Shown here: positions 38,504 to 42,858 of the stretch, piece after piece | Layout of the letters: the number at the start of each line of letters is the position of its first letter | Position numbering within the stretch: position 1 is the stretch's first letter | Translations under genes and position numbers: made by a program | DNA from: Zhongshania aliphaticivorans | GTDB taxonomy: Bacteria > Pseudomonadota > Gammaproteobacteria > Pseudomonadales > Spongiibacteraceae | Direction: 5' to 3' | NCBI RefSeq assembly: GCF_001586255.1 | Contig: NZ_CP014544.1 | Coordinates: forward strand, 3,566,501-3,630,500 | Length of the DNA stretch: 64,000 nucleotides | The notes under the pieces: model-generated | Databases searched by the model: none | What the model was told of the DNA's origin: nothing | The model's input: only the letters and a program-made list of their open reading frames with translations

Positions 38504-39368
38504 GCTCTGGCGGGCTGCGCAATACCAACACCCCACCCAGCACCACGCAAATTATCCCGACCAAGGTTAGGTGGTCGGGAATATGATCCCATATCAACCA
38601 ATCTATAACGCCACTGAAAACCACCGCAAAATAGCTTATCGGCGCCGATACCGAGGCCGATATATAACGGTATGCCAAGGTATAAAGAACAAAACCCAAA
38701 TAAATGACCACGCCCATATACACCAAGCCCGGCCATGCCGACAGGGGAATTGGCTGATAATGAAACAAAAAGAAGGGCAAGCTCACAATGACGGAGATCA
38801 AAAAATAGTAAAACAGTATTCGGTTTTGCGGCTCACCCTGCATTAACTCTCGGGTACTGATCATCGACACGGCTAAACCCAAGGCTGACAGCAGGGCCAG
38901 TACATGCCAGACACTGAATCCGGCAAAGCCTGGTTTTAACACCAGTACCACCCCAATAAAACCAATGAGCAACGGCGGCCAAGCATGGCGACCTACCCGC
39001 TGTTTAAACCATAGTAAAATAACAACTGGCACCATTAAGGGGGCTGAAGCCCGCAAGAGGGTCGCCTCCACCAAGGAGATATGACTTAGGGCGAGATAAA
39101 ACAAATAGAAACAAGCGCAACCACTAACTCCCCGCACAAGGTGCAAGCCAGGACGACGAGTGACCAAACTTCCCCGCCCGGCCCGCATTATCGACGGTAG
39201 AGCAAACAAGAAACTCAGGCCGTACTGCACCATAACAATAGCGGAAACATGGACCTCTTGGGAGACGTGTTTACCTACCGCCGCGACGGTGCTCGACAGC
39301 AACACAGTCAGTAGGGACAGCGCCAGACCAGTGAGCAGTTGTTTTTTGGGGGTAGAAACAGTAATCAA
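38466..39368 (-). CDS. EamA/DMT-superfamily transporter
   Basis: A 300-residue inner-membrane protein with about ten hydrophobic helices arranged as two EamA repeats (about 12-140 and 150-285), the drug/metabolite transporter layout. Motifs such as VEATLLRASAPLMVPVVILLWFKQR and the second-half APISYFAVVFSGVIDW are typical. The exported compound is unknown. The start is a TTG (39368) with only a weak ribosome site, and no better ATG precedes the first helix. Its 3' end overlaps batD by 38 bp tail to tail. Confidence 0.8.
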   Translation of the reverse strand: MITVSTPKKQLLTGLALSLLTVLLSSTVAAVGKHVSQEVHVSAIVMVQYGLSFLFALPSIMRAGRGSLVTRRPGLHLVRGVSGCACFYLFYLALSHISLVEATLLRASAPLMVPVVILLWFKQRVGRHAWPPLLIGFIGVVLVLKPGFAGFSVWHVLALLSALGLAVSMISTRELMQGEPQNRILFYYFLISVIVSLPFFLFHYQPIPLSAWPGLVYMGVVIYLGFVLYTLAYRYISASVSAPISYFAVVFSGVIDWLIWDHIPDHLTLVGIICVVLGGVLVLRSPPEPTSTDTAGLKAR

Positions 39369-39497
39369 GGACAGATCTCAATATTGCCAGCTGCCACACT
39401 ATAAAGAGGCCTTGATGCATTGGCCAGCGAGATCGATGCGAGACAGCACTCACCCAGCCCAAAACCAAGCAGCTGGGCGAGCACTCAGTGGACGGTA

Positions 39498-39824
39498 TTA
39501 CTTTTTAGCGCCGCATTTCGCTTCGCCACATTTGCCTTCTTTGGCCGCTTTGTCAGCGCCGCATTTGGCTTCACCACATTTACCTTCTTTGGTCGCTTTG
39601 TCAGCGCCGCATTTCGCTTCGCCACACTTGCCTTCTTTGCTCGCTTTGTCAGCGCCGCACTTGGCTTCGCCGCACTTACCCTCAGCGTCTTTGGCGTAGT
39701 CGGCCAACTGGTAGCCACTGCTCATTACCTTGGCAGCAAAGGGGTTGGTATCGGCTACCGCAACAGAGGCCATTGAAGAAGCAAGCATCGCAGCGCTGAA
39801 AGCAGTCATCGCAGTTTTTTTCAT
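39498..39824 (-). CDS. hvfA: HvfA-family EGKCG-repeat precursor peptide (copper-binding RiPP)
   Basis: This 108-residue peptide has a signal sequence (about 1-24, ending AVADTNPF), a short spacer, and four 16-residue repeats with core EGKCGEAKCG (from 48, 64, 80 and 96), giving eight Cys (51, 56, 67, 72, 83, 88, 99, 104) and no other Cys. EGKCG is the core motif of HvfA-type RiPP precursors, whose cysteines are converted by an MNIO (DUF692) enzyme with a DUF2063 partner into copper-binding heterocycles. The gene is divergent from the HvfX/DoxX gene, as in hvf operons, but no modification enzyme is in this window. ATG 39824 has an AAGGGTG site. Confidence 0.82.
   Translation of the reverse strand: MKKTAMTAFSAAMLASSMASVAVADTNPFAAKVMSSGYQLADYAKDAEGKCGEAKCGADKASKEGKCGEAKCGADKATKEGKCGEAKCGADKAAKEGKCGEAKCGAKK
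39510..39683 (-). repeat. Four 48-bp tandem repeats within the HvfA gene
   Basis: The EGKCGEAKCG-encoding region consists of four near-identical units of 48 bp (16 codons), the last truncated. Units differ mainly at one codon in the spacer (AS, AT, AA) and at synonymous positions. They are coding repeats, not a CRISPR array, and could expand or contract by slippage. Confidence 0.9.
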
Positions 39825-39907
39825 ATTGTCGTCACCCTTAATAAATGAAGTTTTAAATTGGCCGTCCAATGACGACACTCGCCATTAGAGAAATCTCGTT
39901 ACCGAGT

Positions 39908-39936
39908 GTTACAAAGCCAGTGCTAATAAATTGTCG
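39908..39936 (-). promoter_or_regulatory. Weak ECF-like promoter candidate for hvfA
   Basis: On the minus strand TGTAAC (39913-39908) and, 7 bp later, GGTAAC occur 80-90 bp upstream of the HvfA start. GGTAAC is followed after 16 nt by CGAG, a partial match to the TGTAAC-N16-CGTC element seen on the other strand. The match is poor, so this is a low-confidence suggestion. Confidence 0.25.
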
Positions 39937-39944
39937 GCCTACCC

Positions 39945-39970
39945 TGTAACAAGTTTGCGTACTCTGCGTC
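39945..39970 (+). promoter_or_regulatory. ECF-sigma-type promoter for hvfX
   Basis: TGTAAC (39945-39950), a 16-nt spacer and CGTC (39967-39970) form a classic extracytoplasmic-function sigma promoter, 55 nt before the HvfX start codon. The ECF sigma gene lies immediately downstream of hvfX, so autoregulation of the hvfX-sigma-antisigma genes is plausible. Confidence 0.55.
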
Positions 39971-40025
39971 TCATTGCCAATCGATCGGCGAGTACCGCAT
40001 TGCCCTCTTCTACGGAGTTCTGTTA

Positions 40026-40643
40026 ATGATAGATTTTTTTCGCTATATCCACCGCACCCACAACAAAATCGGCGCGACGCTGACGCATCTTGATGGTATT
40101 CCAGCTTTAGGCCTACGTCTCTACTTGGTGCCGGTTTTTTGGATGGCAGGCAGCAGTAAAATGGCCAATTTTTCAGCAACGGCAGAATGGTTTGGCAATA
40201 GCGACTGGGGCCTGGGACTGCCCATTCCCTATGTGCTGGCATTTCTCGCCACCGCAACCGAGGTACTGGGCGCGGGTCTATTGCTGCTTGGTCTCGCAAG
40301 TCGCTGGATCGCCATTCCGCTCGCCGTCACGATGATTGTTGCCGCCTTAAGCGTGCACTGGCAATTTGGCTGGCAGGCGATTGCCGATGCCAGCGCGCCC
40401 TTTGCTAATGCAAGAGTCGCCGAGTCCGTAGACAAGCTCGCCGCCGCTCGCTCACTACTGGACGCGCACGGCAATTACGACTGGCTAACATCCAGTGGCA
40501 ATATTGTTATTCTCAACAACGGCATTGAGTTCGCGGCAACATACTTATTCATGTTACTGGCCTTAATGGCCCTAGGTGGCGGCCGCTATGTCAGCGCGGA
40601 CTATTGGTTGAAACGCAAATTTGAGCAAGCAACTAAGGTATAA
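40026..40643 (+). CDS. hvfX: HvfX-like DoxX-family membrane protein
   Basis: A 205-residue DoxX-type protein with four membrane helices (about 25-45, 65-90, 93-113, 158-180). The features LRLYLVPVFWMAGSSKMANFSATAEWFGN and ATATEVLGAGLLLLGLASRW are those of the larger DoxX proteins found in hvf clusters. A loop of about 40 residues between helices 3 and 4 contains the W-x-AIADAS-x-PFAN segment typical of that subgroup. It is proposed to act in maturation or copper handling of HvfA at the inner membrane; the mechanism is unknown. GGAG precedes ATG 40026. It is divergent from hvfA and upstream of the sigma-factor gene. Confidence 0.8.
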   Translation: MIDFFRYIHRTHNKIGATLTHLDGIPALGLRLYLVPVFWMAGSSKMANFSATAEWFGNSDWGLGLPIPYVLAFLATATEVLGAGLLLLGLASRWIAIPLAVTMIVAALSVHWQFGWQAIADASAPFANARVAESVDKLAAARSLLDAHGNYDWLTSSGNIVILNNGIEFAATYLFMLLALMALGGGRYVSADYWLKRKFEQATKV

Positions 40644-40747
40644 GTATGGGGACAAGCACAACTTTATAGTGAAAAGGCGGTGACTTGCTTGCGCCAGCAC
40701 CTCGGGATCAGTGACACTAGCAACATAATCTGGGTTTGGAAGCCTCC

Positions 40748-41362
40748 GTGTCACAACTTATCAATGATCCTGAATTTATTGCGCGCCTGCAGTCTGGGGA
40801 CAATAGCGCCTTTAAATCGCTCATCAGCAGCTACCACAACAAATTGCTGATCGTCGCGCGGGCCATTGCTGGCGACGTGTTTGCAGAGGACGTCACCCAA
40901 GAAGCCTGGGCATCTATTTACAAGGCCATTGGTAAATTTGAAGGGCGCTCCAGCCTGTCGACCTGGATGATTCAAATTGTGAGCAATGAAGCCAAATCAC
41001 GACTTCGGCGAGAAAAACGCCACAGCAGTTATGGTGATGTCAGTGATATTGGTCAGGGTGTTGACCCCGACGCTTTTGACAGCAGTGGGCATTGGAGCAA
41101 CCCGCCCGCGCATTGGGATATTAATACCCCAGAGTTAATGCTGCAGGAAGATCAGCTGCGCCAGTGTATAGAGCACACGTTAACAGTGTTACCAGAAAAC
41201 CAGAAGGCGGTGTTTTTATTGCGCGATGTTGAACAAATCGATTTGAATGAAATTGCCGACACACTGGCAATCAGCCAGGCCAATGTGCGGGTACTGCTAC
41301 ACCGCGCTAGATTACGGTTAATGATGACGATTAACCACTACCAGGAGACCGGCGAATGCTAA
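40748..41362 (+). CDS. ECF RNA polymerase sigma factor
   Basis: A 204-residue group 4 sigma factor. Region 2 (about 12-80) includes AEDVTQEAWASIYKAIGKFEGRSSLSTWMIQIVSNEAKSRLRRE in pieces. Region 4 (about 145-195) includes LPENQKAVFLLRDVEQIDLNEIADTLAISQANVRVLLHRARLRL. I choose GTG 40748 behind TTGGAAG; an in-frame TTG at 40736 lacks a site of its own. It overlaps the anti-sigma gene by 7 bp. The promoter motif upstream of hvfX suggests that it controls the hvf genes. Confidence 0.88.
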   Translation: MSQLINDPEFIARLQSGDNSAFKSLISSYHNKLLIVARAIAGDVFAEDVTQEAWASIYKAIGKFEGRSSLSTWMIQIVSNEAKSRLRREKRHSSYGDVSDIGQGVDPDAFDSSGHWSNPPAHWDINTPELMLQEDQLRQCIEHTLTVLPENQKAVFLLRDVEQIDLNEIADTLAISQANVRVLLHRARLRLMMTINHYQETGEC

Positions 41363-41616
41363 ATTGCAAACAGTTTACCGATCTCGCCAGCGATAACCTC
41401 GACGCCCAATACCACGGCTGGAAGCGTATTGATATTCGCCTGCATTTGCTCATTTGTCGCCACTGCCGCCGCTTCAATCGTCATCTTGACCGCAGCCGCC
41501 GCACGGGCGCCGAGCTTGCAAAAACGCTCTGGCAAATCGACGGTGCCTCCAGCGAGCACATTTTCTCCCGCCTTCAGCCCGCGGCAAAGCAAGATACCGG
41601 GGACGGCACGCCTTAA
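41356..41616 (+). CDS. Zinc-finger anti-sigma factor
   Basis: An 86-residue soluble protein with the ZAS anti-sigma signature H-x3-C-x2-C (H30, C34, C37 in LHLLICRHCRRF) and an upstream Cys4. It lacks a membrane helix, so it is a cytoplasmic regulator. The zinc site may respond to redox or metal stress, fitting a copper-linked locus (inference). It overlaps the sigma gene by 7 bp and ends 6 nt from the convergent kinase gene. Confidence 0.8.
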   Translation: MLNCKQFTDLASDNLDAQYHGWKRIDIRLHLLICRHCRRFNRHLDRSRRTGAELAKTLWQIDGASSEHIFSRLQPAAKQDTGDGTP

Positions 41617-41622
41617 TGACGG

Positions 41623-42858
41623 CTATGCCGCGGGCAAATACACCCGGAACTCACAGCCTTTATCCAACTCACTAATAATATCAATGCGGCCGTCACACTC
41701 ATCAAGAATGCGCCGACAAATGGCCAAGCCGATGCCCGTACCCTCGTAGTCACCCTCTCGGTATAAGCGTTCAAATACGCCATATACTCGGGACTGATAA
41801 TGACTGGCAATGCCGATACCATTATCGCGGATATAAAACCCCACCTCGTCCTCGCCGGCATCGTCCACGGGGCCGATTTCCACCACCGGCGGCTTTTGAT
41901 CGCGGCTAAATTTCACCGCATTATCGAGCAGGTTCGATAGCAGCTGGTATAGCGGAGTCGGCGACATATTCACCGTACCCAGAGGCTTTCGATGCAGCTC
42001 GGTGGCGTATTTTTTCATGGCGGCGCCATGCTCAACAACCGCGCGGTCGAGACACTCATCTAAGGCCAATGGCGTCGCTGGAACCAGCGATTGAGGGGCG
42101 CAGTACTGCTGTAAATCATCGATCATCTCGGTCATGCGCTGGGTCGCCCCAACCATGGTCTGCAGCCACTTCGACTCATCCTCTTGAAGGGTTTCACCTA
42201 AGCGTTCATTCAATAGTTGACCAAATACCGAAATAGAGCGCAGCGGCTCCTTGATGTCATGAGCCGTTACCTTGGCGTACTCCTCCAATGCAATATTAGA
42301 GCGTTCCAATGAGGCATGATTTTTTTCCAGCAAGGTCTTCATTACACGGGTTTCTGCCAGCTCTTGAGTTCGCTGCGCGACCAATTCCTCTAGGTCTTTC
42401 GTTAAGTGTTCAACCTGCTGCTTTTGGCGCCTATTTTCGTCAGCCTCTTCTCTAAGCTGTTGATTTAAAGCAATAAGCTGCACATTACTCGGAATAGCTA
42501 GGGCCTTGGGAATCAGCGGCCAAACCACAATCGCCGTGCCCACCGAGGCAATAGCGGTAATTAATTTGACGCCACCACTAAGCCAATAGGCGCCATACCA
42601 AACATTAAAGATATTGACGAGATGGGTTGCACCGCAGGCGAAGATGAAAATCGCAAACATCACAAATATGTAGTTAAACTTGAGGTCATCGCGCTTTCGC
42701 ACTAAATACACGAGGGCGACAGGAATGGTGAAGTAAGACAAGCTAATCAGCACATCACTGATAACATGAAGACGAACCAGATCTTCATTCCACAAATAGC
42801 AATGCCCATGGGGCGGCATTTCCGGCCCCAGTAATTTGTTCAAAAACTCATTAGCCAT
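41623..42858 (-). CDS. Histidine kinase with ethylene-receptor-type copper-binding membrane domain
   Basis: A 411-residue membrane kinase. Residues about 28-118 form three membrane helices that align with the ethylene-binding domain of plant ETR1: ISD (D35), SYFTIP (Y42, I45, P46) and ACGATHLVN (C75, H79). In ETR1 the corresponding D25, Y32, I35, P36, C65 and H69 are needed for copper and ethylene binding. A coiled coil (about 125-185) leads to HisKA with TAHDIKEP (phospho-His200) and HATPase_c (LLSNLLDNAVKFS, DNGIGI, GTGIGLAI). There is no GAF domain. ATG 42858 opens MANEFLNKLL. A 20-bp palindrome lies upstream. Bacterial homologues are known, but ligands are rarely established. Confidence 0.85.
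   Translation of the reverse strand: MANEFLNKLLGPEMPPHGHCYLWNEDLVRLHVISDVLISLSYFTIPVALVYLVRKRDDLKFNYIFVMFAIFIFACGATHLVNIFNVWYGAYWLSGGVKLITAIASVGTAIVVWPLIPKALAIPSNVQLIALNQQLREEADENRRQKQQVEHLTKDLEELVAQRTQELAETRVMKTLLEKNHASLERSNIALEEYAKVTAHDIKEPLRSISVFGQLLNERLGETLQEDESKWLQTMVGATQRMTEMIDDLQQYCAPQSLVPATPLALDECLDRAVVEHGAAMKKYATELHRKPLGTVNMSPTPLYQLLSNLLDNAVKFSRDQKPPVVEIGPVDDAGEDEVGFYIRDNGIGIASHYQSRVYGVFERLYREGDYEGTGIGLAICRRILDECDGRIDIISELDKGCEFRVYLPAA

Follow-up and report, generated by a model that had tools for sequence, protein, structure and literature searches.

The hvfA2 locus and its genes

The window analysed here, a stretch of 64,000 nucleotides comprising bases 3,566,501-3,630,500 of the one-contig 4.20-Mb genome of the marine bacterium Zhongshania aliphaticivorans, contains hvfA2, a gene for a cysteine-rich precursor peptide of the HvfA family, together with the membrane protein gene hvfX and genes for an extracytoplasmic function (ECF) sigma factor and a ZAS-type anti-sigma factor. 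The enzymes HvfB and HvfC, which probably modify this precursor, are encoded 1.87 Mb away beside a second precursor gene, hvfA1, and promoter-like sites of one type lie at both loci. The features are listed below, in window coordinates except for the last.

39498..39824, minus strand: hvfA2, HvfA-family precursor of 108 aa (open reading frame (ORF) 39824..39498, beginning MKKTAM; match to profile NF050137)
39510..39683, minus strand: core of hvfA2, four EGKCGEAKCG units with a 16-residue period (read from the sequence)
39887..39913, minus strand: ECF-type promoter-like site of hvfA2, TGTAAC-N16-TCTCT, a relaxed form (genus pattern)
39945..39970, plus strand: ECF-type promoter-like site of hvfX-ecf-zas, TGTAAC-N16-CGTC (pattern also found 5' of hvfA1BC)
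40026..40643, plus strand: hvfX, DoxX-family membrane protein (PF07681, 4.7e-19; NF050144, 224 bits, cut-off 80)
40736..41362, plus strand: ECF sigma factor (PF04542 and PF08281, the Sigma70 r2 and r4 domains)
41356..41616, plus strand: ZAS-type anti-sigma factor of 86 aa (NF052368, 57 bits, cut-off 50; C-X25-H-X3-C-X2-C)
Genome 1,733,236-1,733,261: promoter-like site of hvfA1BC, TGTAAC-N16-CGTC (pattern search)

The hvfA2 product begins with a signal-peptide-like N-terminus, recognised by eye only from a Lys-rich start, a hydrophobic stretch and small residues near residue 25, which is followed by NPFAAKVMSSGYQLA and then by the Cys core; its eight cysteines are residues 51, 56, 67, 72, 83, 88, 99 and 104. 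The motif EGKCG occurs four times in the six-frame translation of the window, each time in a unit of hvfA2, and the protein matches the NCBIfam HvfA family profile NF050137 at 4e-28 (96.8 bits, cut-off 19.5), which bears out the first-pass annotation of an HvfA-type precursor with four repeats and eight cysteines at this position. HvfA2 falls below the NCBIfam HvfA equivalog model NF050188 (62.7 bits, cut-off 95), as does the cis-encoded HvfA1 (56.3 bits), and HvfA2 is therefore filed as a member of the HvfA family, the Buf_EGKCG precursors of oxazolin or captophorin type, and not as a strict equivalog. HvfA2 and HvfA1 have the stretch NPFAAKxMxSGYxLA in common, C-terminal to the signal peptide, and a similar stretch is also present in Pseudomonas precursors that adjoin their multinuclear non-heme iron-dependent oxidative enzyme (MNIO) genes.

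As had been described at first pass, hvfA2 is oriented divergently from the DoxX-family gene, whose product is well above the equivalog cut-off of NF050144. The sigma and anti-sigma genes that were said to follow the peptide gene are present, but they follow hvfX on the plus strand. The start codon taken for the sigma factor is TTG, with a GTG at 40748 as a possible alternative by eye. The ecf and anti-sigma genes overlap by 7 bases, and a consensus scan of 39300-41900 gave no terminator-like site between hvfX and ecf, both of which point to hvfX-ecf-zas as probably one operon. The scan itself was not informative, with 4 sigma-70-like sites against 2.3 (standard deviation 1.5) in shuffled sequences and 1 terminator-like site against 3.2 (standard deviation 1.4). 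The signature residues of the anti-sigma protein are Cys4, His30, Cys34 and Cys37, and their arrangement conforms to the ZAS motif C/H-X23-26-H-X3-C-X2-C as given in PMC7907618.

The only HvfB and HvfC are encoded at a distant locus

Profile searches for MNIO (DUF692, PF05114) and DUF2063 (PF09836) genes, of the kind suggested at first pass, covered the whole genome at E <= 0.001 and returned one gene of each type. The two genes are adjacent at about 1.734 Mb, and thus neither an MNIO nor a DUF2063 gene lies in the window. The earlier statement that HvfB and HvfC are missing is correct for the window but not for the genome: the MNIO is HvfB (NF003818, 425 bits, cut-off 360), and the DUF2063 protein is HvfC (NF050145, 308 bits, cut-off 142). 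Directly 5' of hvfB-hvfC lies hvfA1, which encodes the second precursor, with 150 aa and ten cysteines. No hvfX was found in the 16-kb stretch around hvfA1BC, and the usual hvfXABC set is consequently split over two loci that are 1.87 Mb apart. The best reading of these sequences is that the window and the hvfA1BC locus may be regarded as one pathway on two loci. An assembly artefact was rejected as the cause of the split, given that the genome is a single contig and that three others (G004, G011 and G014) likewise have the two separate loci on one contig.

The window hvfX is the top HvfX-family match of the genome. A second HvfX-family protein is encoded at genome positions 3,349,740-3,350,363 on the minus strand (205 bits, above the family cut-off); it is longer than the window HvfX and has an extended Ala/Ser/Pro-rich C-terminus, and its gene adjoins, by eye, ThiF/MoeB-like and methyltransferase genes. 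This second copy, at about 200-220 bits, is found in 16 of the 18 genomes of the genus.

The split is maintained across the genus

hvfBC lies apart from the sigma pair in 17 of these 18 genomes. Ten, including that of the window, have hvfA1BC at one place and hvfA2, hvfX, ecf and zas at another; in one of the 18 genomes, G003, hvfA2 is shortened and has five xCG motifs. In four genomes (G011-G014), hvfBC has no adjoining precursor, and the only EGKCG precursor found adjoins hvfX/ecf. Two genomes (G001 and G004) have hvfA1BC and hvfX/ecf without hvfA2, and one (G010) has hvfA1BC and ecf/zas, with hvfA2 absent from the ECF locus. In the remaining genome (G007), a single cluster holds everything, and the ECF protein is more distant (38% identity). 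Both loci are on one contig in 4 of the 17 split genomes (G000, G004, G011 and G014), where they are 0.26 to 2.26 Mb apart (0.96 Mb in G011 and 2.26 Mb in G014); the loci of the other 13 are on different contigs, and the distances thus refer to the four single-contig cases.

A precursor beside hvfBC in G011-G014 was sought and rejected. The 9-kb loci contain no ORF with at least three xCG motifs beside hvfBC, and the small ORFs with at least four cysteines within about 2 kb (0, 6, 1 and 6, respectively), several of which overlap hvfB or hvfC in other frames, have neither EGKCG repeats nor the NPF...GY leader. The G014 precursor itself falls short of the curated model and was detected with a custom repeat pattern, which indicates that a further degenerate precursor may exist elsewhere in G014.

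Within the genus, G013 (L110, C11:101500-110500) encodes an additional MNIO that is more distant (367 aa frame) and whose neighbour is weakly HvfX-like; it probably belongs to another MNIO pathway. The G007 cluster (L097, C1:1816500-1826500) contains a diverged ECF/ZAS pair and, upstream, an extra short ORF with three xCG motifs.

Promoter-like sites at both loci

The string TGTAAC-N16-CGTC, termed the strict site, occurs three times in the 4.20-Mb genome: 5' of hvfX, 5' of hvfA1BC and inside an ORF of 484 codons. The reversed pattern has 11 copies, and the 18 genomes of the genus have 1 to 13 sites of the pattern each. A looser form gives seven further matches in this genome, which were viewed as raw sequence with ORFs listed for one of them.

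The string was chosen after the hvfX and hvfA1BC loci had been viewed, and for this reason the pattern was tested in other genomes. A relaxed site, TGTAAC-N16-(CGTC or nnTCT), is present in 43 of 46 regions of the genus that lie 5' of hvfA1, hvfB, hvfA2 or hvfX, including 13 of the 14 hvfA2 genes. With other spacers between 8 and 26, the count is at most 6 regions, with other letter orders in the -35 box at most 3, and the relaxed site is found in 0.14% of letter-shuffled regions. The hvfX regions of G012 and G013 lack the landmark and are outside the 46; both have the strict site. In all four genomes in which hvfBC has no adjoining precursor, a promoter-like site lies 5' of hvfB. Several hvfA1 sites in the genus have degenerate -10 boxes.

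Relatives of the sigma factor outside the genus

The loci compared are those of the top 80 among 333 confirmed relatives of the ECF protein, in stretches of 4.2 to 10.6 kb; ten belong to the genus of the window and 70 lie outside it, 15 of the latter with hvf genes. Outside the genus, the strict site is present at 14 of the 15 loci with hvf genes and at 3 of the 55 without. Over all 80 loci, the counts are 24/25 and 3/55 (Fisher p 4e-16, uncorrected for relatedness). Seven loci, all from Pseudomonas, combine ECF-ZAS with a complete hvfA-B-C-X run that has the site at its start, and in four of them the first ATG past the site is the start of the precursor.

Some of the relatives differ in layout. 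In G084 (L121, C1:4803000-4812000; L122), an hvfA-B-C-X run has a strict site, and the ECF/ZAS pair is located about 2.5 Mb away on the same contig without a site, which is the reverse arrangement, as in Haemophilus influenzae. The Methylophaga lonarensis locus (L171) contains a precursor, HvfX-like genes, an ECF gene and a promoter-like site, with no hvfBC within its 10 kb; it is perhaps an independent split. At five loci from Halopseudomonas, Pseudomonas and a Pseudomonadaceae metagenome-assembled genome (L178, L179, L185, L189 and L200), the ECF gene is followed by hvfBC, and no precursor is found by the pattern of at least three xCG motifs. A signal-peptide-like start lies 3' of the promoter-like site in L179, which suggests that a different precursor may be located there.

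Comparison with known systems

The closest counterpart is in the meningococcus, where, according to PMC2893595 and PMC3240639, the autoregulated operon NMB2140-NMB2145 comprises a DoxX-like gene, three hypothetical genes, sigma-E and its ZAS anti-sigma factor. The H. influenzae and Neisseria clusters are reported to be homologous (PMC7907618), and for this reason the three hypothetical genes may be read as hvfA, hvfB and hvfC; if so, the gene set here is that of the meningococcal sigma-E operon. The meningococcal anti-sigma protein MseR has Cys4, His30, Cys34 and Cys37, the same residue numbers as the ZAS protein of the window. The sigma-E site deduced for Neisseria (GTMAGBWTT, 12-13 bases, CGTCTAAH; PMC2893595) is of like geometry, with 16-17 bases from the fifth letter of the -35 box to CGTC and the -10 motif CGTCTAA, whereas the -35 letters differ (GTMAG there, GTAAC here). 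All six meningococcal genes form one operon, whereas hvfBC and the second precursor are distant here. The msrAB gene is another reported sigma-E target in the meningococcus.

In H. influenzae, RpoE2 is described as controlling a homologous four-gene operon that is strongly RpoE2-dependent after HOCl (PMC7907618, PMC13419390). As here, this oxazolin (hvf) operon under RpoE2/HrsE involves an HvfA with EGKCG repeats, HvfB, HvfC, HvfX and a ZAS anti-sigma protein. Its hvf genes are together and the sigma gene is elsewhere, whereas here the sigma gene is accompanied by the precursor and hvfX, with the enzymes at another place. The Caulobacter sigma-F and Sinorhizobium RpoE7 systems are reported to place DUF692/DUF2063 operons under ECF control from related promoters, GTAACC-N16-CGAA in the former and sites holding TGTAAC and CGAA in the latter (PMC3511200, PMC6180224). 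Caulobacter differs in its DUF2282-type precursors, its DUF1109 anti-sigma protein and the joint location of precursors and enzymes (PMC3511200).

Stand-alone Buf_EGKCG/oxazolin precursors are also in print, and the authors who describe them suggest modification by an MNIO encoded at a different locus, or no modification. In that work, sigma factors are reported with Buf1 clusters, and, unlike the present case, the available parts of that source describe neither a common promoter for the stand-alone precursors nor an ECF/ZAS pair with EGKCG precursors (PMC12452194). These sources thus already report hvf genes under sigma control (in H. influenzae), as well as EGKCG precursors that stand alone and the idea that such precursors are modified in trans (PMC12452194). 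A regulator of its own, which the first-pass annotation had considered unusual, is not so in view of the reported sigma control of the meningococcal and H. influenzae hvf-type operons (PMC2893595, PMC3240639, PMC7907618); the unusual feature is that precursor and regulator are stably separated from the enzymes. No description of the two-locus layout was met in the literature searched, in which subscription journals were thinly covered. As far as the searches show, the new elements are the stable genus-wide separation, the genomes in which the enzymes are fully unlinked from the precursor found, and a common promoter that seems to tie them. The genus is therefore a natural test of trans modification, since 4 of its 18 genomes have their only detected EGKCG precursor at a place apart from the enzymes, seemingly tied to them by one promoter type. 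This suggests that orphan precursors might be linked to their enzymes by promoter instead of by neighbourhood, with TGTAAC-N16-CGTC as a candidate signal of hvf regulons in Spongiibacteraceae and in some Pseudomonas.

Proposed pathway and alternative explanations

It is likely that HvfA2 is modified in trans by the distant HvfBC inside one ECF/ZAS regulon, the whole representing a rearrangement of the sigma-E/DoxX operon of Neisseria. The window would then hold half of one MNIO copper-peptide pathway producing a ribosomally synthesized and post-translationally modified peptide (RiPP). Stress acting on the ZAS protein would release the ECF sigma factor, which would start transcription at the TGTAAC-N16-CGTC-type promoters of hvfX-ecf-zas (autoregulation), hvfA2 and the distant hvfA1BC. 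HvfB, with its partner HvfC, would be guided by the signal-peptide leader and, before Sec export, would modify the KCG cysteines of both precursors, acting in cis on HvfA1 and in trans on HvfA2. The modified product would pass through Sec into the periplasm and bind copper there, with HvfX as a putative membrane accessory. The chemistry published for the HvfA family is the conversion of Cys to 5-thiooxazole, with copper binding (PMC13097082, PMC13419390), and HvfA2 may share it. A mass shift of about -4 Da per Cys is reported for a related pathway (PMC12538549, on the Microbulbifer mmr cluster). H. influenzae HvfBC reportedly prefers a precursor with its signal sequence and modifies one lacking it poorly (PMC13419390), which fits recognition by leader and not by gene position. 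RpoE2 of H. influenzae is reported to respond to HOCl and H2O2; in the present organism, the trigger could be either an oxidant or copper.

Several observations weigh against this proposal. Since hvfA1 adjoins hvfBC, HvfA2 need not be a substrate in this organism, and no HvfX-family match is found in G010. Three of the 46 promoter regions do not show the site at N16 (N17 at hvfA of G007, CATCC at hvfA2 of G011, and a match farther upstream at hvfA1 of G009), and the -10 box of hvfA2 itself is weaker. At 10 of 11 loci viewed, the -35 box 5' of hvfA1BC or hvfBC shares bases with the final codons (..Val-Thr..) of the gene before it, and coding constraint therefore explains part of its conservation. 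In the comparison of collected sites, the box letters were set by the search itself, and the Fisher p values overstate the association because the string was chosen post hoc and related genomes are not independent. In 55 of the 80 ECF relatives, there is no hvf gene in the compared stretch, and this ECF is present (E <= 1e-30) in 38 of 115 relatives compared with 88 of 115 for MNIO. Three genomes from outside the genus were compared as well: in G084, hvfABCX has the strict site and ecf lacks it; in G076, ecf has it and hvfABC lacks it; and in G018, it is missing from both ecf and the hvf genes. From these results, the sigma factor and the hvf genes appear to be associated, not inseparable. The matching neisserial geometry on the one side and G018, G076 and the ECF counts on the other roughly balance.

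The first-pass annotation had offered two explanations, enzymes acting in trans or a peptide that serves unmodified. The former gains support, at the level of sequence, from the distant hvfBC, the common sites, the genus-wide split and the co-occurrence of precursor and enzyme. In the latter, HvfA2 would reach the periplasm unmodified and serve there as a Cys-rich buffer for metals or thiols, independently of HvfBC but under common regulation with HvfX. Free cysteines can bind copper, and hvfA2 lies away from an hvfBC pair that has its own precursor here. Among 115 relatives, however, each of the 58 genomes with an EGKCG match also has an MNIO, and the match is absent from all 27 MNIO-less genomes (Fisher p 1e-10, uncorrected for relatedness). 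Additionally, G011-G014 keep hvfBC, with no precursor found in them other than the sigma-linked one, and the leader and KCG contexts of HvfA2 match those of precursors that adjoin MNIOs. In a survey, MNIO genes are reported to be missing from 67 of 2583 EGKCG genomes (PMC12452194, Table 3); this is a further point for the buffer and indicates that the link between precursor and MNIO is strong but not absolute. Taken together, an unmodified buffer appears unlikely.

Separate regulation of the two loci, with the ECF factor controlling its own operon only and the common TGTAAC-N16-CGTC being a coincidence or a leftover, could draw on the post hoc motif, the codon overlap of the hvfA1BC -35 box, the degenerate -10 boxes at several hvfA1 sites and the missing strict site at hvfABC in G076 and G018. 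It is nevertheless very improbable in view of the spacer peak at exactly 16 in 43 of 46 regions, the site 5' of hvfB in all four genomes without an hvfBC-adjoining precursor, and the recurrence outside the genus (14/15 compared with 3/55). That hvfA2 arose as a copy of hvfA1, remained in place after a rearrangement and is now decaying with no function of its own, is barely credible: its absence from the ECF locus in G001, G004 and G010 and its shortening in G003 would fit decay, but a repeat-bearing open frame is kept in 13 other genomes of the genus, in 12 of them with the site at N16, and it is the sole precursor found in four.

An extension of the proposed trans modification, in which HvfA2, HvfX, the sigma factor and the ZAS protein would form a sensor module, a fast arm apart from bulk HvfA1 whose modification or copper load would feed back on the sigma factor, is distinctly improbable. 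If it were true, the modification borrowed from HvfBC would give the pathway a readout of its own enzyme capacity.

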